DNA from: Rhizobium sp. Q54
GTDB lineage: Bacteria > Pseudomonadota > Alphaproteobacteria > Rhizobiales > Aestuariivirgaceae
Reading direction: 5' to 3'
Assembly: GCA_945889445.1 (NCBI GenBank)
Contig: CAMDBX010000017.1
Span: 1 to 59,068, forward strand
Length of the DNA: 59,068 nucleotides
Each line of letters begins with the position of its first letter. Positions within the stretch are counted from its first letter, which is position 1. Below the pieces are notes generated by a model. The model saw only the letters and a list, made by a program, of their open reading frames with translations, did no database searches and was not told the DNA's origin. The translations under genes were made by a program, and so were the position numbers. Positions 131 through 14,443 of this stretch are shown here, one piece after another.

Positions 131-706
131 CTAGCTTGACCCGCACCGCTCCTCGCAGAAGCCGCAGAACTTGGAAAGCACCGCCCGGAGCCGGTTGGCG
201 GCCGTGCCCCGGCGCTTGGCGGCCTTCAGGTCTGCCGCCTTCTTGCTGATGACGGCCGACAGGTCCGACTTGGTAAGCTGGGCCAACGGATAGAGGCCGA
301 GGCGCGGCAGCACGTCCTGACGGAGCATCCGCTCGGACTCCGCGGCCCACGCGGCGCTGTTCTTAGCCTTGACATGCTCGGCGATGTACCGCTCTGCGGC
401 CTCTGCGAGCGTCCTAGGGGCTTCCGTGCCCTGCTCCTTGCGCCTCTCCGCCACGCGGGGGTCAAGGCCATCCCTGATCTGTGCCTTCAGGGCCTCGGCC
501 TTGTCAAAGGCCACGCGCACGCCAGTGGCCGGGTATGAGCCGAGCGCGAGCCGCTGCTGCTTGTCGCCGATCAGGGCCTTCAGCACGAAGCTCTTGCCGC
601 CTGTGGCGGCCACCCTGACGACGACGGAATTGCCCAGCGCCACGTCGTAGCGGGCATCCTTGGAGCGGAGGTTTCTCACCTTGAGGTCGAGCTTCTTGAA
701 GTCCAT
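131..706 (-). pseudogene. truncated tyrosine-recombinase (P4-type integrase), N-terminal part
   Basis: The 191 residues match the front of phage/island integrases: an arm-DNA-binding domain (residues about 1-90, with the typical run LALGSYPATGV) and the start of the SAM-like core-binding domain (about 95-180, AAERYIAEHVKAKNSAAWAA). Members of this family are about 400 residues long. The catalytic domain with its R-H-R-Y residues is absent, because the frame ends at a TAG at 131-133 and no integrase-like frame continues to base 1. I start at ATG 706, which has AAGGAG seven bases upstream, rather than at the longer open frame. It reads away from the tRNA-like sequence at 930-976, as expected for an integrase at the end of an island. 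It is probably inactive as a recombinase, though it could still bind arm sites. Confidence 0.8.
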
Positions 707-722
707 CTGGTGTCTCCTTGCC

Positions 723-821
723 GGGGCCACTCTCGGGGCCACGATTTGCTCTCAGGGCCACGACATGCGATAGACGATCATGTAGTCTATTGGAGAGTTA
801 TTTACAACTGACCGGGGCCAC
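723..821. repeat. four GGGGCCAC repeats upstream of the integrase fragment
   Basis: The octamer GGGGCCAC occurs at 723-730, 735-742 and 814-821, with a variant AGGGCCAC at 754-761, all in the same orientation. They lie between the integrase start and the tRNA-like attachment sequence. Integrases of this type use short repeated arm-type sites in that position, so these are candidate arm sites. That role is inferred; only the repeats are seen. Confidence 0.45.
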
Positions 822-976: not shown

Positions 977-2290
977 AAAACACTATTGATTGAAAGCGCT
1001 CGTTAGGGGCATTTGACCGCTCGCAGATGAAACCGCTAAAAATGTTATGCTTGTGAGTGGCGATGGCATCCGCGCCCCGGTTCGCCCGACCGAGCCAGAA
1101 TGACGCCTCGCAGCCCCAGGGCCTTGACATTGACGGTCTTTCCCTGATCAGCCAATCCATTCGCATTTAGACCGCCATCAAACGGCGGCTCGGAAGACCA
1201 ATCAGTAAAACCGACGACGGCACTTGCTGAGGAACTATTCTTTGAATGGCACCTAGTGCCGCTCCACCAGTTTGATGAACCAATGCTAACATTTGTCCAA
1301 ACTTCACCCGCAAAACTGCTCCCCAACGCGGCAGCCAAAATGGATGGCTCGGTCTGGTTCACACAGCACTCCGCGATGGTTGCTAGCGAATGTATCTAAC
1401 CAAATAAATCCTTCTCTGAGCAACCCAAGGAATGGGATAAAGAGACGGGATACCGAAAGCGCTGCGCCACTTGCGGGCACAAGCGTCAGCACAACCTTAG
1501 CGGCGAGCGACACTTGGAATAGTGACGATTGCCCGCCAGACACCAGTAACTGGATGTCTTCTTCACCACTCTGACAAACAAAGCATAGAGTGTGTTGGGG
1601 TATTGAAGAAAAACTGCCGCTCGGAACCGCTGAATTCCGAAGGTAAGAGCAATCGTACCAAGACCGATCAGAGCACGACCAAAGTCTCGGCGATCAGGAG
1701 ACAATAAATGGTCCTGGAGTTCATATACATCCCAGTTCGGCGAGCAATTCAGGCCAATCATGCACCGTGGTCACTAGACCTTATCTCTTGACGTCCTATC
1801 ACTTGCCGACGGGCGGCAACGGAACGGCATCTATAGTTGTATCCCTGCACCCAAGTGCCAAACTGTACGTTCAGTAAACAGCGGTGAACTCTCGCTATGG
1901 CGGTCTGCAAATCGTCAGGGATTGCAAAATGAAGACCTAGGGATGAAAACAAAACATTCAATAAATGCGAACATCATAGTGAAAACGGACAACCGATCCG
2001 CCTAGTCAATCCAATTACACTATTTACGAGAGATCGAAGACCGACACAAAGGTACTTAAATTCTTTTTCAGTTTAATACAGCAACACTATCAATCAGTTA
2101 CTGCCCAACGAGGCTCAATGTCGGAGACCTCCGGCCTTATTCTTGACCAAGATCAAGGTAATCAAGGGACGAAATGCACTATTCGGTGCACAGTAGGAAG
2201 TTGATACGCCTCAAAGCCGCTGAGGGTAGCTCGGTGTGACCGTCAGCTGAAACTGGCACGAGGACGTCTCATGCTCGAAGGGTGGCTCTA
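977..2290. other. 1.3 kb without a supportable gene
   Basis: The stretch is visibly less GC-rich than the rest of the window. Short leftward frames at 1045-1362, 1304-1543 and 1486-1761 overlap head to tail in three different phases, which could be the remains of one decayed gene. None shows a domain I recognise or a convincing ribosome-binding site. No tRNA, terminator or insertion-sequence end was found. A short GAAGGG ribosome-binding site at 2277-2282 belongs to the protease gene that follows. Confidence 0.5.
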
Positions 2291-4363
2291 ATGACGATCC
2301 TAGGCAACACCCATCGTACCGCTGGCAAGCTCTGCGTGGCTGCTGCTTTTCTGGCGATTTCCGCGCTCAGCCAAGAAGTATCCGCGGGAGAATGGCCTTT
2401 TTTCAAGGAGAGCCTCAGGCCCTTCCCGACTATTGATCTCGCTACTCGACAGTCGAAGGGCCAAGATGCAATCGATCGCTTGGGCCTCCATCTGCCTGAT
2501 GTTGCGGCTTGGTACGGCAGGACTGCAGATCAACTTCGGAAGGAACTGCTGAACGACAGCCGCATGCGGATCGACAAGACCGGCCGTGTCCTGTTCGTCG
2601 AGGAGCTCGAGACACCGATCCCAACAGAACAAGTCGATACCGCAACCGTGCAGCAAAGCATTCAGCAGGGATCACTGGTCAGCCTTGACCAAACCTTCTA
2701 TTTGCATAGCCACCCTGGCGCCACCCGTACCATCTACCTTGACTTTAACGGTGCTAGCATCGTCGGAACCGCTTGGAACACCAGCAGCAAAACTCTCAAT
2801 GCAGCCCAATTTGACATCGATGACAATCCCGTAGTTTTCTCGACATCTGAGTTGCAGCGCATTCAATACATCTGGCAACGGGTTGCCGAAGATTACGCTC
2901 CATTCGATGTCAACGTTACCACCGAACAACCCTCTCAGGACGTGCTGACGCGCTCCAGTGTGAATGATCAAGTCTACGGAACCACGGTCGTGATCACCAA
3001 GACAGACGGCGTGTACTCCTGCAGCTGCGGCGGCATCGCCTACGTTGGTGTTTTCAATTACTCGGGTGGAAGCCACCCGCCCGACTATTACAAGCCAGCC
3101 TTTGTGTTCTTTGACAAGCTCGGAGGCGGCAACGAAAAAGTAGTGGCCGAGGCGATTTCACACGAGGCGGGCCACAACATGGGCTTGCATCACGATGGTA
3201 CAGCCACTGACGCTTATTTTGCCGGCCATGGATCTGACCCGACAACGGGCTGGGCGCCCATCATGGGTGTCGGCTATTACAAGCCGCTCGTACAGTTTAG
3301 CCGCGGCGAATACTCCGGTGCCAACAACAAGGAGGATGACTTTGTTGTAGCGCAGACTTTCGGCCTGCCCTTGCGCCTTGACGATTTCGGCAGCGACATC
3401 AACGAGGCGACTCCCTTTATGGAATTCAACTCGGGAGGCATGACCAGCGGCAGCATGGACGGAGTTATCGAATCCATGCTCGACAGCGACGTGTTTGCGA
3501 TCTCTGCAGGCCCTGGCCCTCTCAATGCGACTGTTATACCGGCGATGCGATCTCCTAACACAGACCTCGTCCTGACACTGCGGGATGCCGCTGGAGGTGT
3601 TCTTGCCTCCACCAATCCTCTTAACCAGCTCAGTTCGGCGTTGTACTATTCGGTACCCTCACAAGGCACCTATTTCCTTGAAGTTAAGGGGACCGGGCAA
3701 GGAGACGCCATCATGAATGGCTACTCCAACTATGGTAGCGTGGGGAACTTCCGGCTGTCAGCTAGTTATACCGCGCCTGTTGGTTCCCGTCCTACCGCGA
3801 TCATGACGACCACGCTCTACAATGGCCCGGCTCCACTTGCCGTATCGTTTGATGGCACTGGTTCGCAGGATGATGGCCGAATCGCCTTCTGGTACTGGGA
3901 CTTCGGCGACGGCAACAGCGACGTCACCGGCACCTTGTCAGCCCCTACCCACGTCTACTCGGTGCCAGGTAACTATGTCGCGCGGTTGACCGTGGTTGAT
4001 GATAGCGGTCTCAGCGCCAGCACGACACACGTCATCAATGTCACGGCACCTGCACCCCAAACCAGTGTTCAGGCGATCCAGATCACGCTCAAAAGCAATA
4101 CGAAGGGCTACGCATGGGCGACAGCGGTGGTGTCCGTGGTGAATCAGAATGGAACTCCGACCCGAAGTGCCAGGGTGTCTGCCAACTGGAACGGCATCGT
4201 CAGCAAGGCAACGGGGGGATTGACGAAGAACAATGGAACTCTCACTCTCACCTCGCCCAAGACGAAATTGAGTGGTTGTTTCAATCTGACGGTCACTGGC
4301 GTCACAGCCAAGGGCTATTCATTCAATGCCGCATCAGACCGGACTGCCCAAGTCTGCCGCTGA
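2291..4363 (+). CDS. secreted zinc metalloprotease (metzincin type) with PKD domain
   Basis: The 690-residue protein starts with a signal peptide (hydrophobic run CVAAAFLAISAL, cleavage likely after VSA near residue 33). The catalytic signature HEAGHNMGLHHD puts zinc ligands at His291, His295 and His301 with Glu292 as the base. IMGVGYY near residue 325 fits the Met-turn of metzincins. A pre-peptidase-like beta region spans about 370-490, a PKD domain about 500-585 (FWYWDFGDGNSD), and a Thr/Asn-rich Ig-like tail about 595-690. I use ATG 2291 because GAAGGG lies eight bases upstream; an in-frame GTG at 2282 overlaps that site. It should act outside the cell on proteins, but the substrate is unknown. 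It adjoins the island edge and may be acquired; 161 bp separate it from the next gene. Confidence 0.85.
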   Translation: MTILGNTHRTAGKLCVAAAFLAISALSQEVSAGEWPFFKESLRPFPTIDLATRQSKGQDAIDRLGLHLPDVAAWYGRTADQLRKELLNDSRMRIDKTGRVLFVEELETPIPTEQVDTATVQQSIQQGSLVSLDQTFYLHSHPGATRTIYLDFNGASIVGTAWNTSSKTLNAAQFDIDDNPVVFSTSELQRIQYIWQRVAEDYAPFDVNVTTEQPSQDVLTRSSVNDQVYGTTVVITKTDGVYSCSCGGIAYVGVFNYSGGSHPPDYYKPAFVFFDKLGGGNEKVVAEAISHEAGHNMGLHHDGTATDAYFAGHGSDPTTGWAPIMGVGYYKPLVQFSRGEYSGANNKEDDFVVAQTFGLPLRLDDFGSDINEATPFMEFNSGGMTSGSMDGVIESMLDSDVFAISAGPGPLNATVIPAMRSPNTDLVLTLRDAAGGVLASTNPLNQLSSALYYSVPSQGTYFLEVKGTGQGDAIMNGYSNYGSVGNFRLSASYTAPVGSRPTAIMTTTLYNGPAPLAVSFDGTGSQDDGRIAFWYWDFGDGNSDVTGTLSAPTHVYSVPGNYVARLTVVDDSGLSASTTHVINVTAPAPQTSVQAIQITLKSNTKGYAWATAVVSVVNQNGTPTRSARVSANWNGIVSKATGGLTKNNGTLTLTSPKTKLSGCFNLTVTGVTAKGYSFNAASDRTAQVCR

Positions 4364-4524
4364 GGGACAAACGCCCAAAACGCCAATTGGAGGGGTAAGC
4401 AGCTGCCGAGAGGGCGCCGCTCGCCGCAGTGAGGGCGCAACCCTTACAGAGATGACGCTTTAGGCATCTTTCGCTGGCCAGATCTCGATTAGCCTGCCAC
4501 CGACACAATCTATCGGGGGCAGAC

Positions 4525-7491
4525 ATGTCGGCAATTGAACAGTTCAAGGCGGCGCGCGAGGAATCAATCCAGGCCACGGCCGGCGGACCGCCACCGAGAA
4601 CGTTGAACCCATTCTTTGGCGTCGGCCCTATAACCGACATGGCATGCGACGAGGCGGACAGCCGCATGCTTCGGTTCCAGTTCGAGCATTGGCTGGAGCA
4701 GAACTACCGTAAACTGGATGACAGAGGGCGCGACGTCGGCAACTTTACGGCTTCCGAAATTAGTCGTTCGATGCATCGCGGCTATCCTGCAGACAAGTTC
4801 CTTCTCGACATGATGAGGGAAATCCACCGCTACTTCGAATTTCCAAACTCCAACCGCCTCGCTGTTGGCCTTGGCGGGGGCCATTCCGGCTTTACCGTGT
4901 GCGCTCTGCACTTCCTGACAACCAACGACCCCTCTCAACACATCTATATCGACACGCCAGCGCCGGAAACCGAACTGGCACGAACATCTGGCTTCTTCAG
5001 GCAGAGTTGGGGTGCCCAGATCATCGAGATGATGCGTTATGCGCGCAATGGCGATGAGAACCGCATTCACTTCGCCAAGGAAGAAGGGGCTATCCCCAGC
5101 GCGGACATTCTTGAACGCATGGGGATAAAGGTCTTTCTTGGTGTCGGACACGAGACGACCGGTGCGACCACCTATTCGAAAAGTGACATTCGCAACCTAC
5201 TTGATTGGATCGATCGCAATCCCTCGGAACATCACGCAGTGCTAGACGCCACCTCAATGCTCGGGGCGATGCCCTGGGGCGAGGATATCGTGGCGCAAGT
5301 CATGGCGAAATGCAGTCTGTTCATGCCGCTGCAGAAGGCGATTGGCGGCATCTCCGGCTATTTCCTGGTTTCGCTCACGCCCCGGGCCATGGAGTTGATA
5401 GAGGACAACCAAAAGAGGCCCTCTTGGGCCATACCACGGCAACTCAAGCTTGCGGCACCTGTGGATCCGAAAATGCCGCTGTCTGGCGAACGGACGGTGA
5501 ACCTCGGCCCGATTTATGATCCTCTGGCCAATAAGATGGTTGGCGGTGTGATCAATACCTTCTCGACTTTGGCATTCGCCGAAACGACGTTCGGCCTTCT
5601 TCGGGTTGAACAAAAGATTGGATCCGTGAAGGAACTGAACCGCCGTTCGGAGTTAAACCGGATGGCCCTGAACGAGTGGATGAGAAATTCAAACCTGTTC
5701 GAGCTCGGAGTCCGCAACCCGGAGCATCGTGGCGCCGCTGTCACTCTGATCAAGGTTACAGATGATCAAGTGAGGGACGGTGCTCTCCATGCCCGCATCA
5801 TCACGCGCTCAAAGCAGCTCCTGTCCTACGACGGCATAACGCATCCCAACGGCTTTCATGAGCAAGGCCTCGACGTTGCCCGCTATGTAAACGCCTTCCC
5901 GGGGACGCCAGGCGACTATCGGGCGTGGATTGGTGGCATCCGGCCAGTGGAAGACATCCACGCTCTGCTCGACAATCTCAAATATGCTTACCATCGCGCT
6001 CGTATTGTTGTCATGGAGGAGGAACTCGCAGAGCGAGGCATTGTATTCCCTGGCCCCGTCGAGGCAACTGGTCGCATTCGTCAGGATGATCCCGGCAGGG
6101 TGTACAGAATATTGGTCTGCGATCATGTTGGGCTGAAGCTCCGCGATAACGGTCTGCCGGATCATTCCGCTGTGAAGGCACACGTTGTCGCGCAGGGCGG
6201 GAAGTTCCACGAGCAGCCCCATCAAGACAGCATGCGGCTTGAACCCGGCATCCACTTCTTCTACCAACCGCATTTATCAAAGCCAGACGAGATCCGCTCA
6301 CTGACTGCGCAAGGCCAGTATGATGCGGTGATTGCTGCCGCAACCTTCTTGCCGAAGGAGGCCAGGTTTCAGGAAGGTGGCGTACGCATCGGCGCTGGCA
6401 CCGGAAACATGGGATCTCTCTCATGGGGCGGTGGCAACGGTGAGGGTGGTCCTGCGCCCCTCATGAACACGCCATCCTTCAATAGTCGAGCGACCGCTCA
6501 AATGGGCTTCAAGGCTCTACTCAAGGTGCTTCCTGACCTCCCTGTTGACGAAATGCACAAGCTTACTGCCGCAGGACAATTCGACACAGGACGCGATCTT
6601 GTGAGGTTCCCAACGGAGAAAATCGAGGGAAAGCGCATCGGGATCATAGGTTATGGAAACATCGGCCGAGAGATGGCCAAATTGGCCCAGGCGTTTGGCA
6701 TGGTTGTCGCCGTTCATGCTCGCCCCCGCCACAAGGAATGGATTGAATCCGAGGGTTTCATCTTTGCGGCAACTCCCGAGGAGGCCGCAAAGGGCTCAGA
6801 CGTGATATCTGTACATACCGGGCTAGGGCCGCTGAATGCTGCCACCGGAAAGTTCGCAAACGCCAATGTCGTGAACACCTCTGTCCTCAGCCAACTGAAT
6901 GGGGATGCCATCGTGCTCAACTACGATAGGGGCGAGTGCGTCGATGCCATCGCCCTCGACCAGGCGATGACCAGTGGACGGGTTCGCTATGCCGCCATTG
7001 ATGCCGATCTTTTCGTCGATCAGGCGAATGGAACTGCAAGCGGGCCTATGGCGCCCTACCTGCACCTTGCGAAGAAGTATCCCGGCCGCCTGGAACTTCT
7101 GCCACATGCTGCCGCAGACACAGAGCATGTTTCACGCGTGGAGGGAGCAAAGCAGGCTGTGGATCAGATCATCGGGGCTATTCGCTTCAGGGAAGTTGTC
7201 AATCTGAAGGGTGACTTGCCGGACGGTTATGCTCTGGCAGGATCCCGCACGGTACCCGGTGTGGGTAAGTGCAATGCCCAGACAGTTGCGCAGACAGTGG
7301 AAACCGGGGACGCCGCACAAGCTCGCAAGGAAGCCGAGGAGATGGCGGCCATTTGGGCGGCTTTGGCGAGCGCCAATACAGAAGACGCCCGCCAGTTGCT
7401 GATCGCACGCTACGGCGCCCGCTTGGTCAAGACCTTCAACACTTACGCCACGCGCATGCGAAGATTGGGCCTTGAAGGTCCTTATGCCTGA
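4525..7491 (+). CDS. fused aminotransferase (SerC-like) / D-2-hydroxyacid dehydrogenase (SerA-like)
   Basis: This 988-residue protein joins two enzymes. Residues about 30-500 are a class V PLP aminotransferase resembling phosphoserine aminotransferase: DATSMLGAMPW carries the likely cofactor Asp241 and LQKAIGG the Schiff-base Lys271. Residues about 525-900 are a D-isomer 2-hydroxyacid dehydrogenase with Rossmann motif GYGNIG at 709-714, substrate Arg802 (NYDRGE) and catalytic His861 (LLPHAA). The usual catalytic Glu, 29 residues after the Arg in phosphoglycerate dehydrogenase, is Val831 here, followed by Asp832. No ACT domain follows. Serine synthesis uses the same two activities, but fusion in this order, the missing Glu and the convergent amino-acid importer operon suggest a different substrate (inference). 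Its 3' end overlaps the M20 gene by 10 bp on the other strand. Confidence 0.8.
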   Translation: MSAIEQFKAAREESIQATAGGPPPRTLNPFFGVGPITDMACDEADSRMLRFQFEHWLEQNYRKLDDRGRDVGNFTASEISRSMHRGYPADKFLLDMMREIHRYFEFPNSNRLAVGLGGGHSGFTVCALHFLTTNDPSQHIYIDTPAPETELARTSGFFRQSWGAQIIEMMRYARNGDENRIHFAKEEGAIPSADILERMGIKVFLGVGHETTGATTYSKSDIRNLLDWIDRNPSEHHAVLDATSMLGAMPWGEDIVAQVMAKCSLFMPLQKAIGGISGYFLVSLTPRAMELIEDNQKRPSWAIPRQLKLAAPVDPKMPLSGERTVNLGPIYDPLANKMVGGVINTFSTLAFAETTFGLLRVEQKIGSVKELNRRSELNRMALNEWMRNSNLFELGVRNPEHRGAAVTLIKVTDDQVRDGALHARIITRSKQLLSYDGITHPNGFHEQGLDVARYVNAFPGTPGDYRAWIGGIRPVEDIHALLDNLKYAYHRARIVVMEEELAERGIVFPGPVEATGRIRQDDPGRVYRILVCDHVGLKLRDNGLPDHSAVKAHVVAQGGKFHEQPHQDSMRLEPGIHFFYQPHLSKPDEIRSLTAQGQYDAVIAAATFLPKEARFQEGGVRIGAGTGNMGSLSWGGGNGEGGPAPLMNTPSFNSRATAQMGFKALLKVLPDLPVDEMHKLTAAGQFDTGRDLVRFPTEKIEGKRIGIIGYGNIGREMAKLAQAFGMVVAVHARPRHKEWIESEGFIFAATPEEAAKGSDVISVHTGLGPLNAATGKFANANVVNTSVLSQLNGDAIVLNYDRGECVDAIALDQAMTSGRVRYAAIDADLFVDQANGTASGPMAPYLHLAKKYPGRLELLPHAAADTEHVSRVEGAKQAVDQIIGAIRFREVVNLKGDLPDGYALAGSRTVPGVGKCNAQTVAQTVETGDAAQARKEAEEMAAIWAALASANTEDARQLLIARYGARLVKTFNTYATRMRRLGLEGPYA

Positions 7492-8648
7492 GGCAACGCC
7501 TTCTCGACGAGCCTCGCCCAGAAGGCAGGTCCCTTCACGAGAAGCGCATCATTGAAATTATAACCAGGGTCGTGCAGCATCGGCCCTGGCCCCGCTCCCA
7601 ATCCAAAATAGCAGGAGGGAACAACTTCCTGCATTGCCGAGAAATCCTCGGAGAACATGAAGGGGCCTCGCATGTCTATTTTCTCTGGGTCCTGCCCCAT
7701 ATCGAGAGCCACCTGGCGCACGAGAGCCGCTTCATCGGCTGTGTTGAAGCCTGCCGGATAGCTCCAGCTGTCAACGCCCATCTGAACTTCTGCGCTGCAG
7801 CCATAAGACTTCGCATGCGCCATGGCGAGGTCCTGTATCCGCCTCAGAACGAGTTCTCGGACTGCTTTCGTGACTGTGCGTATTCCCACCAGCAAACGAA
7901 CCTGCTCCGGTATTACGGTCGCCATGGATCCACCGTTTATGGCCCCAACCGTAACAACTGCCGGATCATGCGGATCGAGATTACGTGAAACGATGGATTG
8001 CAGAGCTAACACGACGCTTGATGCCGCCACGATCGGGTCAACGGATTTGTGCGGTAGCGCCCCATGGCCGCCCACACCGTGGATCACGATTGTGAGAACA
8101 TCACAGGACGCCGTGATGGGACCCGGGCGCACAAGAATCTGCCCTTCTGCCTCACCAGGCAGGTTGTGAAGCGCAAAAATCCGATCGCATGGGAACCGCT
8201 CGAAAAGACCGTCCTCGATCATCTTCATCGCGCCGCCCTCATCTTCTTCGGAGGGCTGAAAAATCAGACGAACGGTGCCATCGAAATTGCGTGTCTCGGC
8301 GAGGAATCGCGCGAGCCCAAGCAACATGGTCGTATGGCCGTCATGCCCGCAGGCATGCATCTTGCCGGGATATCTTGATGCATAAGGCAGATTGGTCTGC
8401 TCATGGATGGGCAATGCATCCATATCGGCACGTATCCCGATCACCCTACTTGATGTGCCATTCGTGATTGAGGCGACCACTCCCGTCTTCGCGATACCGG
8501 TGACGACCTCGAAACCAATCCGAGAAAGTTCATCAGCGACTATTCGCGCCGTACGTTCCTCCTGAAATAGCATCTCAGGATGGGCATGAAGATCTTGCCG
8601 GATCAGCGTCAGTTCCGGCTGGTACTTCCTGAGTAGGTCCTCGATCAT
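7482..8648 (-). CDS. M20-family amidohydrolase / N-acyl-amino-acid hydrolase
   Basis: The 388-residue enzyme belongs to the M20D group (hippurate hydrolase, IAA-amino-acid hydrolase), which cleaves an amide to release an amino acid. Metal-site motifs are RADMDALPI (about 73-81), HACGHDGHT with Cys100 and His102, and QPSEE ending at Glu134-Glu135. Length is normal and there is no signal peptide, so it acts in the cytoplasm. Its ATG overlaps the stop of the upstream permease as ATGA, which makes it the last gene of the importer operon. The likely job is to process the imported compound. The acyl group and amino acid cannot be read from the sequence. Confidence 0.85.
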   Translation of the reverse strand: MIEDLLRKYQPELTLIRQDLHAHPEMLFQEERTARIVADELSRIGFEVVTGIAKTGVVASITNGTSSRVIGIRADMDALPIHEQTNLPYASRYPGKMHACGHDGHTTMLLGLARFLAETRNFDGTVRLIFQPSEEDEGGAMKMIEDGLFERFPCDRIFALHNLPGEAEGQILVRPGPITASCDVLTIVIHGVGGHGALPHKSVDPIVAASSVVLALQSIVSRNLDPHDPAVVTVGAINGGSMATVIPEQVRLLVGIRTVTKAVRELVLRRIQDLAMAHAKSYGCSAEVQMGVDSWSYPAGFNTADEAALVRQVALDMGQDPEKIDMRGPFMFSEDFSAMQEVVPSCYFGLGAGPGPMLHDPGYNFNDALLVKGPAFWARLVEKALPQA

Positions 8649-9445
8649 CGCTTCTGTGGAACTCTCTTCTCAATGAAACTGAAAATCCAAACCGTCAGGA
8701 AAGTGAGGCACATGTAAATGACAGCAAGCAACATCAACGGTTCATAGACGATGTAAGTGTCCTGGGTGATACGGTTGCGCACCACGCCGGCAAGGTCCAT
8801 CACCGTTACGGTCATGGCAAGTGGAGTGGCCTTCAGCTGGAGTACAACTTCACCCGCCAATGTCGGGAGGACCAAGCGCACAGCCCGCGGAAACCAGACC
8901 CGCGTTAACACCTTCCAGGGAGACATTCCGAATGCACGCGCAGCCTCAAGCTCTCCGCGTGGAACGCCAAGGAACGCTCCCCGCATGATCTCACCCTCGT
9001 AACCCGCAAAACTCAGCGTGAAGGCAAGCAGAGCGTACCAGAAGGCATCAAGCCGGATCAGCCATGTGAAGTCGTTCTTGAACTCAGGATAAATCATCCC
9101 GATTTGCGGGAACAGTGAACCTAGGCCGTAATAGATAAGCCAAAGCTGCAACAAGAGCGGCGTGCCCCGTATCACCGTGCAGAATCCATGTGCAATGGCT
9201 GCAAGCCAACGCGGCCCGGTGACCTGAACGAGGCCGATTGGAATAGCGAGGATCATGCCGAGAATGCAGGACAGCACCCACAGCAACAAGGTGAGCCAGA
9301 GACCCTTGACCAGAAGCGGGAGGTATTTTGCAATCCAGTCCCAGCGAGAGGCTGCGAACAGCCAATAGAGGAGGCCGCCTGCAACAAGCAACAGGACCCC
9401 AACGACGAGCGACTTGATGATGAACTTTATGTGGCTTGTGTTCAT
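8645..9445 (-). CDS. amino-acid ABC transporter permease, HisM/OccM type
   Basis: The 266-residue inner-membrane protein has an extra N-terminal helix (residues about 10-32) and then the five-helix core of polar amino-acid permeases. The cytoplasmic coupling loop is RGELEAARAFGMSPW. The open frame extends further upstream, but ATG 9445 has GAGGGCAG in front and clears the stop of the preceding permease by 10 bp, so I use it. It pairs with the neighbouring permease to form the membrane channel of the importer and overlaps the M20 gene by 4 bp. Confidence 0.88.
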   Translation of the reverse strand: MNTSHIKFIIKSLVVGVLLLVAGGLLYWLFAASRWDWIAKYLPLLVKGLWLTLLLWVLSCILGMILAIPIGLVQVTGPRWLAAIAHGFCTVIRGTPLLLQLWLIYYGLGSLFPQIGMIYPEFKNDFTWLIRLDAFWYALLAFTLSFAGYEGEIMRGAFLGVPRGELEAARAFGMSPWKVLTRVWFPRAVRLVLPTLAGEVVLQLKATPLAMTVTVMDLAGVVRNRITQDTYIVYEPLMLLAVIYMCLTFLTVWIFSFIEKRVPQKR

Positions 9446-9455
9446 TGCGCTGCCC

Positions 9456-10178
9456 TCAAGCCAGTTTCCGCTGACCCCGGCGTACCCGCTTTTCGAGTAT
9501 GGCAAAGCCCTTCTGTGAAATCAACGTGATGATCAGATAGATCAGGCCCGCGACCATGAAGAACGTGAAATACATCTTCGTGTTCCCAGCAGCCTGCCGC
9601 GTGGCAAGAGCGAGTTCCGTATAGCCAACCACAGCAATCAGCGCGGTATCCTTGGTGACGATCAACCAGAGATTTGCCAGGCCCGGAATGGCATAGGGAA
9701 GCATCGATGGAAGGGTTATCCGGCGAAAAATCAACCAAGGTGACATGCCATAGGCCTTGGCTGCCTCCATTTGGCCGACGGGAATTGCCTGAATGGCCGC
9801 GCGGAGCACTTCCGTAGAATACGCACCTTGTACGAAGCCCAGAACCAATACGGCTGCTACGAACCCGTTGATTGCAACGGTCTCATACCCCGCGCTCTCA
9901 AGCAATTGGTTGAGCGTGGCCGTGCCAGCGTAGTAAAGGATCAGAATGAGAATGAGTTCCGGAACCGCACGGACAAGCGTCGTATAGCCTTCCATGATGC
10001 CGCGCGTAAGCGGACTGCCGTCCAACTTGCACAGCGCTCCGATAATTCCAATAATCAGACCGAGGCTATAGGCCAGCAAGGCGATTGAGATGCTCATCGC
10101 CGCACCCCAGAGCAACTCGTCGCCATAGCCGGTTGGGCCGAAGGCGAGGATTTCCGGAAATCCGGGTTTCGCGGCCAT
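9456..10178 (-). CDS. amino-acid ABC transporter permease, HisQ/OccQ type
   Basis: This 240-residue inner-membrane protein has about five helices and the permease coupling motif in GQMEAAKAYGMSPWLIF. It is the shorter partner of the HisQ-HisM pair and is of the usual length. It lies 56 bp after the substrate-binding protein gene. That gap contains a strong hairpin, so its expression is probably lower than that of the binding protein. The substrate class is polar amino acids or opines from family resemblance only. Confidence 0.88.
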   Translation of the reverse strand: MAAKPGFPEILAFGPTGYGDELLWGAAMSISIALLAYSLGLIIGIIGALCKLDGSPLTRGIMEGYTTLVRAVPELILILILYYAGTATLNQLLESAGYETVAINGFVAAVLVLGFVQGAYSTEVLRAAIQAIPVGQMEAAKAYGMSPWLIFRRITLPSMLPYAIPGLANLWLIVTKDTALIAVVGYTELALATRQAAGNTKMYFTFFMVAGLIYLIITLISQKGFAILEKRVRRGQRKLA

Positions 10179-10197
10179 GAACGCTCACAAGAAAAGA

Positions 10198-10223
10198 GCC
10201 CGCGGAGTGAATTCTCCGCGGGC
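10198..10223 (-). terminator. intercistronic hairpin / partial terminator after the binding-protein gene
   Basis: A perfect 10 bp stem (GCCCGCGGAG paired with CTCCGCGGGC) around a 6-base loop is followed on the minus strand by CTTTTC-like T-rich sequence. It sits between the binding-protein stop and the first permease. Hairpins at this point commonly make the binding protein the most abundant product of such operons. Confidence 0.7.
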
Positions 10224-10234
10224 GGCACACCTGC

Positions 10235-11029
10235 TTACTTGGGAACAATCATCTTCCCGACGAGGTCGGGATACTTGTTCGTTATTTCTTCGAACTTGCC
10301 AGACTTGGCGAGTTCCGCGATTGCCGCATTGAGCTTGTCTTTCAGCGCCGCCTCATCCTTGCGCACGCCGCCGCCCACGCCCTCACCGAGCACTTCCGGA
10401 TCGTCCTTGACCTGGCCCTTCAGCTCACAGCATGCCGAGCCCTGCTCCGTCTTGAGGAAGGCATCGAGGGCCGATCCGTCGGCCTGCACATAGTCAAGAC
10501 GGCCCGCGGCGAGGTCATTGTTGGCCTCATCCTGCGTGGCGTAGGTCTTCACCTCAACGCCAGCCGGTGCATAATACTTCTGCACGTACTTTTCGTGGAT
10601 GGTGGAGACCTGGGCGCCCATCACCTTGCCCTTCAAATGCTCGGGCGTGATGTCCTTGTCACCAGTCTTTGCACCGATGATCACGGTTGGCGTGTTGTAG
10701 TACATGTTGGTGAAATCAATCGTCTGCTTGCGCTCACCGGTGATCGACATCGAGGACCAGATCACATCGATCTGCTTGGAGGTGAGGGCAGGAATGATGC
10801 CATCCCACGCCACTTCAACCAGTTCGCACTTCTCATTCATCTGGGCGCACACTGCGTCCATCAGGTCAATTTCCCATCCGACCCACTTGCCCGACGCATC
10901 CTTGGACGAGAAAGGCGGATAAGGCTCGGCAGCCACCCCGAACTTGATGTCGGCAACTGCTGCAGAGCTTGCTCCAGCCAGCATTGTTGCAGCAGCAACG
11001 GCAAGTGCCAAACGACGATTGAGTTTCAT
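10235..11029 (-). CDS. periplasmic amino-acid/opine-binding protein of the ABC importer
   Basis: The 264-residue protein belongs to solute-binding family 3. A signal peptide covers residues about 1-26 (LALAVAAATMLAGASS, cleavage likely after AVA). The mature part follows the family pattern: FGVAAEPYPPF, GWEIDLMDAVCAQM, the WDGIIPAL segment and the hinge strand DYVQADGSALDAF. Four cysteines, including an adjacent pair in GSACCELKG, could form disulfides. It resembles HisJ, ArgT and the octopine-binding OccT more than glutamine-binding types, but the ligand cannot be assigned. It is the second gene of the operon, 69 bp after the ATPase. Confidence 0.88.
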   Translation of the reverse strand: MKLNRRLALAVAAATMLAGASSAAVADIKFGVAAEPYPPFSSKDASGKWVGWEIDLMDAVCAQMNEKCELVEVAWDGIIPALTSKQIDVIWSSMSITGERKQTIDFTNMYYNTPTVIIGAKTGDKDITPEHLKGKVMGAQVSTIHEKYVQKYYAPAGVEVKTYATQDEANNDLAAGRLDYVQADGSALDAFLKTEQGSACCELKGQVKDDPEVLGEGVGGGVRKDEAALKDKLNAAIAELAKSGKFEEITNKYPDLVGKMIVPK

Positions 11030-11098
11030 TCACTTTTCTCCCTGTTATCCCGGGCCTTCTGATAAACCCGGCGTGTTGACGGCAAGGCCTCCTTCGGA

Positions 11099-11899
11099 TC
11101 AAGCATGAGCCGAAGAAACAAATTGGCGACAGCGATCGCTCTTCGGAGATCCGAAGACCTGAGAAGGTGGTCCCTCCTCCTCGATGACGCCTTTGTACAG
11201 ATAGATCACGTGACTCGACACGCTACGCGCAAACTTCATCTCGTGGGTCACGAGGATCATTGTGCGCCCTTCATCCGCGAGATCACGAATGACCTTGAGG
11301 ACTTCCCCCACCAATTCCGGATCGAGTGCCGACGTTGGTTCGTCAAAAAGCATAACTTTCGGCTCCATGCAGAGCGCGCGTGCAATTGCCGCGCGTTGCT
11401 GCTGACCGCCTGAAAGAAAAGCAGGATACTGGTCTCGCTTATCGAACAGTCCAACCTTGTGAAGCAGTTTTTCCGCACGCTCGATGGCCTCGGCCCTTGG
11501 CAGACCAAGCACATGCACCGGTGCCTCGATGACGTTCTGCAGGACCGTCATGTGCTGCCAAAGGTTGAAACTCTGGAACACCATGCCGAGCCGGGTGCGG
11601 ATGCGTTCGAGTTGCTTACGGTCAGCCGGATGGAGATCACCATCCTTGTGACGATCGAGAGCAACCTTCTCTCCAGTTACCTCGATTTGACCCTGCGTCG
11701 GCATTTCGAGGAAATTGATGCACCGAAGGAAAGTCGACTTGCCGGATCCGGAAGCACCGATCATGGATACGACTGACCCCTCGCGAGCCGTGAGCGAGAC
11801 GCCTTTCAGAACCTCCAGTTCGCCGAACTTCTTGTGAAGATCGGTGACCTGGACCGCCACAATGCGATCGCCATCAACAGTCGTGTCAGCGTTCTGCAA
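11099..11899 (-). CDS. amino-acid ABC transporter ATPase, HisP/OccP type
   Basis: The 266-residue ATPase has Walker A GASGSGKST, Q-loop FQSFNLW, signature LSGGQQQR, Walker B VMLFDEPTSALD and the switch His in VTHEMKF. It is the first gene of the five-gene operon ATPase, binding protein, two permeases, M20 hydrolase. The start appears to be TTG at 11899, preceded by GAGGGAG at about eight bases; the nearest in-frame alternative is a GTG 13 codons in, without a better site. ATP hydrolysis drives import through the two permeases. Confidence 0.88.
   Translation of the reverse strand: MQNADTTVDGDRIVAVQVTDLHKKFGELEVLKGVSLTAREGSVVSMIGASGSGKSTFLRCINFLEMPTQGQIEVTGEKVALDRHKDGDLHPADRKQLERIRTRLGMVFQSFNLWQHMTVLQNVIEAPVHVLGLPRAEAIERAEKLLHKVGLFDKRDQYPAFLSGGQQQRAAIARALCMEPKVMLFDEPTSALDPELVGEVLKVIRDLADEGRTMILVTHEMKFARSVSSHVIYLYKGVIEEEGPPSQVFGSPKSDRCRQFVSSAHA

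Positions 11900-12022: not shown

Positions 12023-14443
<2,421 letters not shown>

Follow-up and report, generated by a model that had tools for sequence, protein, structure and literature searches.

The window analysed here is a 59,068-nt stretch of Rhizobium sp. Q54 (contig CAMDBX010000017.1, assembly GCA_945889445.1), to which all coordinates refer. It contains a gene for a fusion of a SerC-like aminotransferase and a D-2-hydroxyacid dehydrogenase (4525-7491, forward strand), which faces a five-gene importer operon on the reverse strand (11899-7482). All six open reading frames (ORFs) were confirmed at these positions, and the convergent fusion and M20 genes overlap by 10 bp at their 3' ends (7482-7491). 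The original prediction had described a SerC-like/SerA-like fusion converging with this overlap on an operon of ATPase, binding protein, two permeases and M20 hydrolase; the fusion was borne out by the ORFs and domain matches, and the operon by Pfam and the coordinates. It had further joined all these genes in a single utilisation pathway. We instead favour, with modest confidence, two separate functional units that are neighbours in part of one genus. The features are as follows.

4525-7491, forward strand: whole fusion, 988 amino acids (aa), SerC-like aminotransferase and D-2-hydroxyacid dehydrogenase
4525-6054, forward strand: fusion N-half, approximately residues 1-510, SerC-like pyridoxal phosphate (PLP)-dependent aminotransferase domain (SerC models, hhalign)
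6079-7491, forward strand: fusion C-half, residues 519-988, D-2-hydroxyacid dehydrogenase and helical tail (PF02826, Foldseek, hhalign)
7482-8648, reverse strand: M20D-type amidohydrolase, 388 aa (TIGR01891; Peptidase_M20 and M20_dimer; best Protein Data Bank (PDB) match 1ysj YxeP)
8645-9505, reverse strand: permease 2 of the ATP-binding cassette (ABC) importer, HisM-like (BPD_transp_1); start codon uncertain, TTG or an ATG 20 codons further in
9456-10178, reverse strand: ABC importer permease 1, HisQ-like (BPD_transp_1)
10235-11029, reverse strand: periplasmic binding protein, family 3, HisJ/LAO type (SBP_bac_3; arginine-side pocket residues)
11099-11899, reverse strand: ABC importer ATPase, HisP-like (ABC_tran); start codon uncertain, TTG
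12023-14443, reverse strand: clpA, a neighbour outside the system, named by eye, which adjoins the operon in loci where fusion and M20 gene are adjacent

The N-half of the fusion gave no Pfam match to Aminotran_5 (PF00266), and its scores with the SerC models NF002841 (55.5 bits) and TIGR01365 (40.8 bits) were far under the cut-offs. With ten canonical SerC proteins it aligned over the whole length at an hhalign probability of 99.4%. Residues K271, D241, H84, R85 and R466 were invariant among 16 aligned fusions, and K271, D241 and R466 fell on the SerC positions of the PLP lysine, the aspartate and the carboxylate-binding arginine. We take them to have the same roles in the fusion, with K271 as the predicted PLP lysine; H84-R85 presumably represents the His-Arg pair of SerC for an acidic side chain. 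The order of motifs (GPI/GPC, SMHRG/SHR, DATS, QK-GG and the Arg of a C-terminal R-x-W-x-G) is also that of SerC. The N-half differs from SerC in its length (510 aa rather than approximately 380-410 aa), its many insertions, its low scores with the equivalog models and in that the tested hosts of the fusion possess a SerC of their own. Judged by its residue positions, it is a SerC-like fold-type-I aminotransferase.

The C-half matched PF02826 with 86.1 bits (gathering score 25.1) and aligned with SerA of nine genomes at an hhalign probability of 99.7%. Like SerA and other D-2-hydroxyacid dehydrogenases (PF02826; structures of CtBP, D-lactate dehydrogenase, PGDH and GhrB), it has a Rossmann GxGxxG motif, the catalytic Arg (R802) and His (H861), and a split substrate domain. 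The residues G709-x-G711-x-x-G714, R802 and H861 were invariant, including in two stand-alone C-halves in the alignment. The structure model of the fusion (mean pLDDT 72, pTM 0.50) was too poor for pocket reading; its best Foldseek matches in the PDB were CtBP, D-lactate dehydrogenase and PGDH, and the 50 matches listed were all dehydrogenases, which bear on the fold of the C-half alone. Unlike known D-2-hydroxyacid dehydrogenases, the C-half has only approximately 20% identity to solved structures, a GGGN insert near residue 636 and, in the structure model, a helical tail of approximately 90 aa at its end. Unlike SerA, the fusion had no Pfam match to an ACT domain. The catalytic triad of D-2-hydroxyacid dehydrogenases is Arg-Glu-His. 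In the alignment to SerA, the Arg and His of the C-half were invariant and no Glu stood at the standard third place. Because this usual catalytic Glu was not located, it is uncertain whether the C-half is active, and this weighs against the enzymatic role proposed below.

Since the two halves have SerC and SerA among their closest named families, and the His-Arg pair presumed to hold an acidic side chain is retained, the fusion could be a redundant serine-synthesis enzyme converting 3-phosphoglycerate to phosphoserine. However, it scored 40.8 bits against the SerC equivalog TIGR01365 (serC_2; cut-off 448.2; 43.6 bits in the search of its own genome) and 66.5 bits against the SerA equivalog TIGR01327 (PGDH; cut-off 454), and the ACT domain match was absent. 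Among 20 genomes tested, SerC exceeded its cut-off in 19 and SerA in all 20. Canonical serC and serA were both present, side by side, in 15/15 fusion-bearing genomes tested (one fusion being cut at a contig start); the sole tested genome without SerC (G390) holds the C-half only, and its SerA runs off the contig. As the scores were far under the equivalog cut-offs and the hosts have serC and serA, these comparisons indicate that the fusion is not the ordinary serine-synthesis route or a SerA/SerC equivalog. We rejected serine synthesis as its role and consider it very unlikely; the earlier view that the fusion is something other than a normal SerA-SerC was upheld.

The neighbourhood of the fusion was compared after duplicate loci, including L024, L027, L028, L029 and L030, which recur in the genome set, had been removed by identical C-half core. 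This left 72 distinct loci: both halves were present in 55, and the other 17 had only the C-half or were cut. An M20 gene (counted at ≥55% identity on the stretch fetched around the fusion or C-half) was present in 11/55 fusion loci, touching the fusion or at most 12 bp away, and all 11 belonged to the window's genus. On the stretches fetched for the remaining 44 fusion loci no M20 gene was present, and 32 of these stretches extended at least 3 kb to both sides. Among the 17 loci lacking a complete fusion, three had an M20 gene: one contig-cut neighbour pair and two at a distance of 14-15 kb. The neighbours of the fusion varied between loci and none was fixed.

In the window's genus, 26 of 37 genomes held both an M20 gene (threshold 1e-150) and a fusion or C-half, adjacent in 12 and not adjacent in 14. 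Nine had a fusion or C-half and no M20 match, one had the M20 gene only and one had neither. The non-adjacent M20 genes were 59-66% identical to that of the window. On 7/8 stretches around such genes (L151-L156 and L168), the whole ATPase-binding protein-permease-permease-M20 block was found with no fusion beside it, and the eighth (L150) was cut by a contig end; in L155 and L168, a C-half lay 14-15 kb from the block. Since the block stands alone on these seven stretches, the operon extends from the ATPase to the M20 gene, and the fusion adjoins it in only some members of the genus.

Within the operon, the binding protein of loci L027 and L028 was 89-91% identical to that of L151 and L152 and 56-57% identical to that of the window. 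In contrast, the ATPase (86-92%) and M20 enzyme (83-87%) of L027 and L028 grouped with those of the window, and the M20 enzyme of the L151/L152 lineage was only 64-65% alike to theirs; the ATPase of L027 alone hardly discriminates (86 vs 84%). When the operon DNA of L027 and L028 was compared with L091 and L151, the resemblance switched twice, close to where the ATPase gene ends and close to where the M20 gene begins. The exchanged block thus comprises the binding protein and both permeases, while ATPase, M20 enzyme and fusion stayed, so that the ligand side changed around an unchanged M20 enzyme and fusion. The exchanged binding protein lacks E35 and S92, two of the pocket residues described below. 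We read this exchange as a recombination footprint, which supports modularity.

The pathway of the original prediction would consist of import, deacylation by the M20 enzyme, and transamination and reduction by the fusion. The chemistry of the parts is compatible with it, and several observations weigh for it and against two separate units. The tail-to-tail arrangement of fusion and M20 gene persists in 12 genomes of the genus, and in L104 approximately 430 bp separate a stand-alone C-half from an M20 gene. When 65 C-halves were placed in a tree, 11 of the 12 loci with adjacent genes grouped in a single clade (support 0.999), but the C-half of L158 (genome G439) branched outside it (support 0.88). 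The gene order of this locus (L158:3323-13172) is that of the window, clpA-importer-M20-fusion, with a gap of 12 bp between fusion and M20 gene, and its M20 enzyme is 76-77% identical to those of the non-adjacent lineages L151, L152 and L156 and 69% identical to that of the window. The pair may therefore have arisen on two occasions, or some of its parts may have been substituted at the same site; either would favour a link between fusion and operon. In addition, among the 14 non-adjacent genomes, the two genes fall on separate draft contigs in 12 and approximately 15 kb apart in two, and 4/14 hold the C-half only.

Against a single pathway stand the 44/55 fusion loci without an M20 gene, the 14 genomes of the genus that carry both genes apart, and the replacement of the importer's specificity block with the fusion unchanged. 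The opposite strands leave no shared transcript for fusion and operon, and the common gene order extends to clpA and clpS, which are functionally unrelated and neighbour the pair where fusion and M20 gene adjoin. On the neighbourhood counts we rejected the single pathway as the best account; the placement of L158 speaks partly for it, and we judge it unlikely. The co-occurrence comparison proposed with the original prediction thus turned out against its single locus: most fusion loci lack the M20 gene on the stretch fetched, and adjacency is confined to the genus. Because they are apart in most relatives, fusion and importer-M20 operon are probably not one pathway.

For the operon as a unit of its own, the M20 enzyme exceeded the cut-off of TIGR01891 (335.5 bits vs 153.75). 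Like the M20D aminoacylases YxeP, ILL2, AgaA, CpsA and DoeB2, it has the HxCGHD motif and others (HACGHDGH at 98, PSEED at 132, ALHN at 159, MLHDPGY at 357), to which we presume a metal role; unlike CpsA and DoeB2, it remained below the cut-offs of both these equivalogs. The importer resembles HisJQMP, LAO and NocT-OccJ importers in its gene set, binding-protein family and arginine-side pocket residues, but did not reach their equivalog cut-offs. The binding protein matched SBP_bac_3 and narrowly missed TIGR01096 (Lys/Arg/Orn; 222.1 bits, cut-off 256.35). Its pocket, read by alignment to HisJ with LAO numbering taken as equal, comprises E35 (alignment-dependent), Y37, F40, W75, S92, S93, S95, R100, Q140, T143, I144 and H145; D184 joins only if the phmmer gap is shifted by one residue.

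According to PMC4192606 and PMC5740067, the arginine side of NocT and OccJ is formed by E, Y, W, R and Q, whereas in LAO the free amine is held by S72 and D161. The window residues E35, Y37, W75, R100 and Q140 match this arginine side (PMC5740067, Table 3), and H145 matches H170 of NocT, which would suit uptake of an opine or other N-substituted arginine and its cleavage by the M20 enzyme. However, the nopaline signature of NocT (G97-M117-H170-S207) reads S95-T115-H145-D184 in the window, with 1/4 matching, and the octopine signature of OccJ (S91-N111-T163-A164-N202) reads S95-T115-I144-H145-D184, with 1/5 matching. Moreover, at positions 92 and 93 the window protein shares Ser with LAO, where NocT and OccJ have Ala, and D184, given the one-residue gap shift, would fit the free-amine lock of LAO D161. 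On these published signatures, specific opine uptake was rejected, and we regard it as quite unlikely. Of the earlier importer/opine reading, the HisJ/LAO-type importer with matching arginine-side residues thus stood and the opine did not. The pocket points rather to arginine or another basic amino acid, and it may have space for a substituted form.

Relatives spanning both halves of the fusion occurred at 57-83% identity in many genomes, so the fusion is not a chance frame. At E ≤ 1e-30, a fusion or C-half was found in 35/37 genomes of the window's genus and, C-half-only matches included, in 20/150 genomes of the order; 3/289 genomes of the class matched, two of the matches lying outside the order. 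At 1e-25, 8/398 genomes of the phylum matched, all in the same order (C-half-only included). Named relatives were from Rhizobiaceae, Labrys, Hyphomicrobiaceae, Aestuariivirga and Rhodobacteraceae. Plasmids gave another 58 matching records, 31 of which spanned 80% of the query or more; they came from Rhizobium, Shinella, Sinorhizobium and kin, Paracoccus and one Roseateles. Among the 40 plasmid records listed, 22 annotated the protein only as 'NAD(P)-dependent oxidoreductase', four as hypothetical, and the rest did not annotate it. A literature search for SerC-SerA or other aminotransferase-dehydrogenase fusions and for a guessed pRL9 gene number, with subscription journals mostly uncovered, listed no paper on this protein; it gave nothing useful on importer-M20 operons.

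In a tree of 47 C-halves, one group consisted of C-half-only proteins, and the other C-half-only proteins nested among fusions, L031 and L032 inside a clade of support 0.95 and the others more weakly. Because of this nesting, loss of the N-half has probably occurred on more than one occasion. In L157, a complete fusion is adjoined by a stand-alone N-half relative (2912-4741, reverse strand; 610-aa frame, approximately 56% identity over residues 4-508). A rubrerythrin/VIT-like gene adjoined the fusion or C-half, or lay in its vicinity, in L161, L164, L166, L167, L157, L029, L033 and L105; the family was tested for L029 and L033 and assigned in the other loci by sequence start or clustering. These neighbours, found mostly in the window's genus, suggest an older location of the fusion. 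Genes around the relatives were called by crude rules (length or GC frame), which fail on low-GC contigs such as L031 and L032.

Stand-alone C-halves offered some hints at the substrate. In Rhizobium sp. RU20A and Shinella (L034, 6383-12724; L186, 5380-10356), a HpaI aldolase, a DadA-like protein, an aldehyde dehydrogenase and a stand-alone C-half are encoded in a row, and the stand-alone C-halves of L102, L103 and L183 lie near aromatic amino acid lyase, Zn-ADH, class III aminotransferase and SSADH-like genes. These contexts fit amino-acid catabolism via 2-oxo and 2-hydroxy acids. In L034, a MOFRL glycerate-2-kinase-type gene, under the NCBIfam equivalog cut-off, lies next to the row; in the window's own genome, a MOFRL gene is on another contig. 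Four lineages (L019/L020/L035, L029, L112, L034/L186) encode a DAO-type FAD oxidoreductase no more than 3 kb from the fusion or C-half, with a weaker match approximately 3 kb away in L111/L113. Both hints are tempered. The L186 stretch shows no glycerate-2-kinase-type gene, so that glycerate as product is a guess from one genome. The DAO family was chosen after the neighbourhoods had been inspected, and against its background of approximately six genes per Mb (at least 376 at E ≤ 1e-20 in 61.9 Mb of 12 genomes), four lineages are weakly above the approximately one expected over very roughly 30.

Other genes were noted beside the fusion. In one genome (L165), a creatininase and a creatinase-type M24 gene precede it. 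In the window, a reprolysin-like metalloprotease with a PKD domain (2282-4363, forward strand; Pfam) lies upstream, and L091 has a 64% relative at the corresponding place. A frame at the window start (131-742, reverse strand) resembles a phage-type integrase fragment, as judged by eye.

In the two-unit reading, the fusion would act without fixed neighbours and outside the cell's serine-synthesis route. Its SerC-like half would transaminate an amino acid to a 2-oxo acid, with glutamate/2-oxoglutarate as the partner suggested by the retained His-Arg pair, and its C-half would use NAD(P)H to interconvert this 2-oxo acid with a D-2-hydroxy acid. The domain families support the general course of this chemistry, from amino acid over 2-oxo acid to 2-hydroxy acid, which the original prediction had assigned to the fusion. 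The substrate class is most likely small or acidic, with serine/hydroxypyruvate/glycerate as the leading, weakly supported candidate. The second unit, from ATPase to M20 enzyme, would take up a basic amino acid of the arginine type or a derivative; in the cytoplasm, the M20D enzyme would hydrolyse an amide of the imported or a related compound. More tentatively, and at somewhat less than an even chance, the fusion may represent an undescribed bifunctional family that interconverts amino acids and D-2-hydroxy acids, passing the 2-oxo acid between two active sites of one chain. It would be a single-gene accessory module on Hyphomicrobiales and Rhodobacterales chromosomes and rhizobial plasmids, with the acid-base residue of the dehydrogenase rearranged.

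The comparison of neighbourhoods illustrates that a convincing tail-to-tail gene pair need not mean a pathway, and L027 and L028 provide a natural swap of importer specificity inside a conserved ATPase-to-M20 frame. The fusion itself is an enzyme of nearly 1000 residues, present whole or as C-half in nearly all genomes of the genus and in 58 plasmid records, and poorly annotated; knowledge of its substrate would fill a gap in the amino-acid or hydroxy-acid metabolism of its host bacteria.

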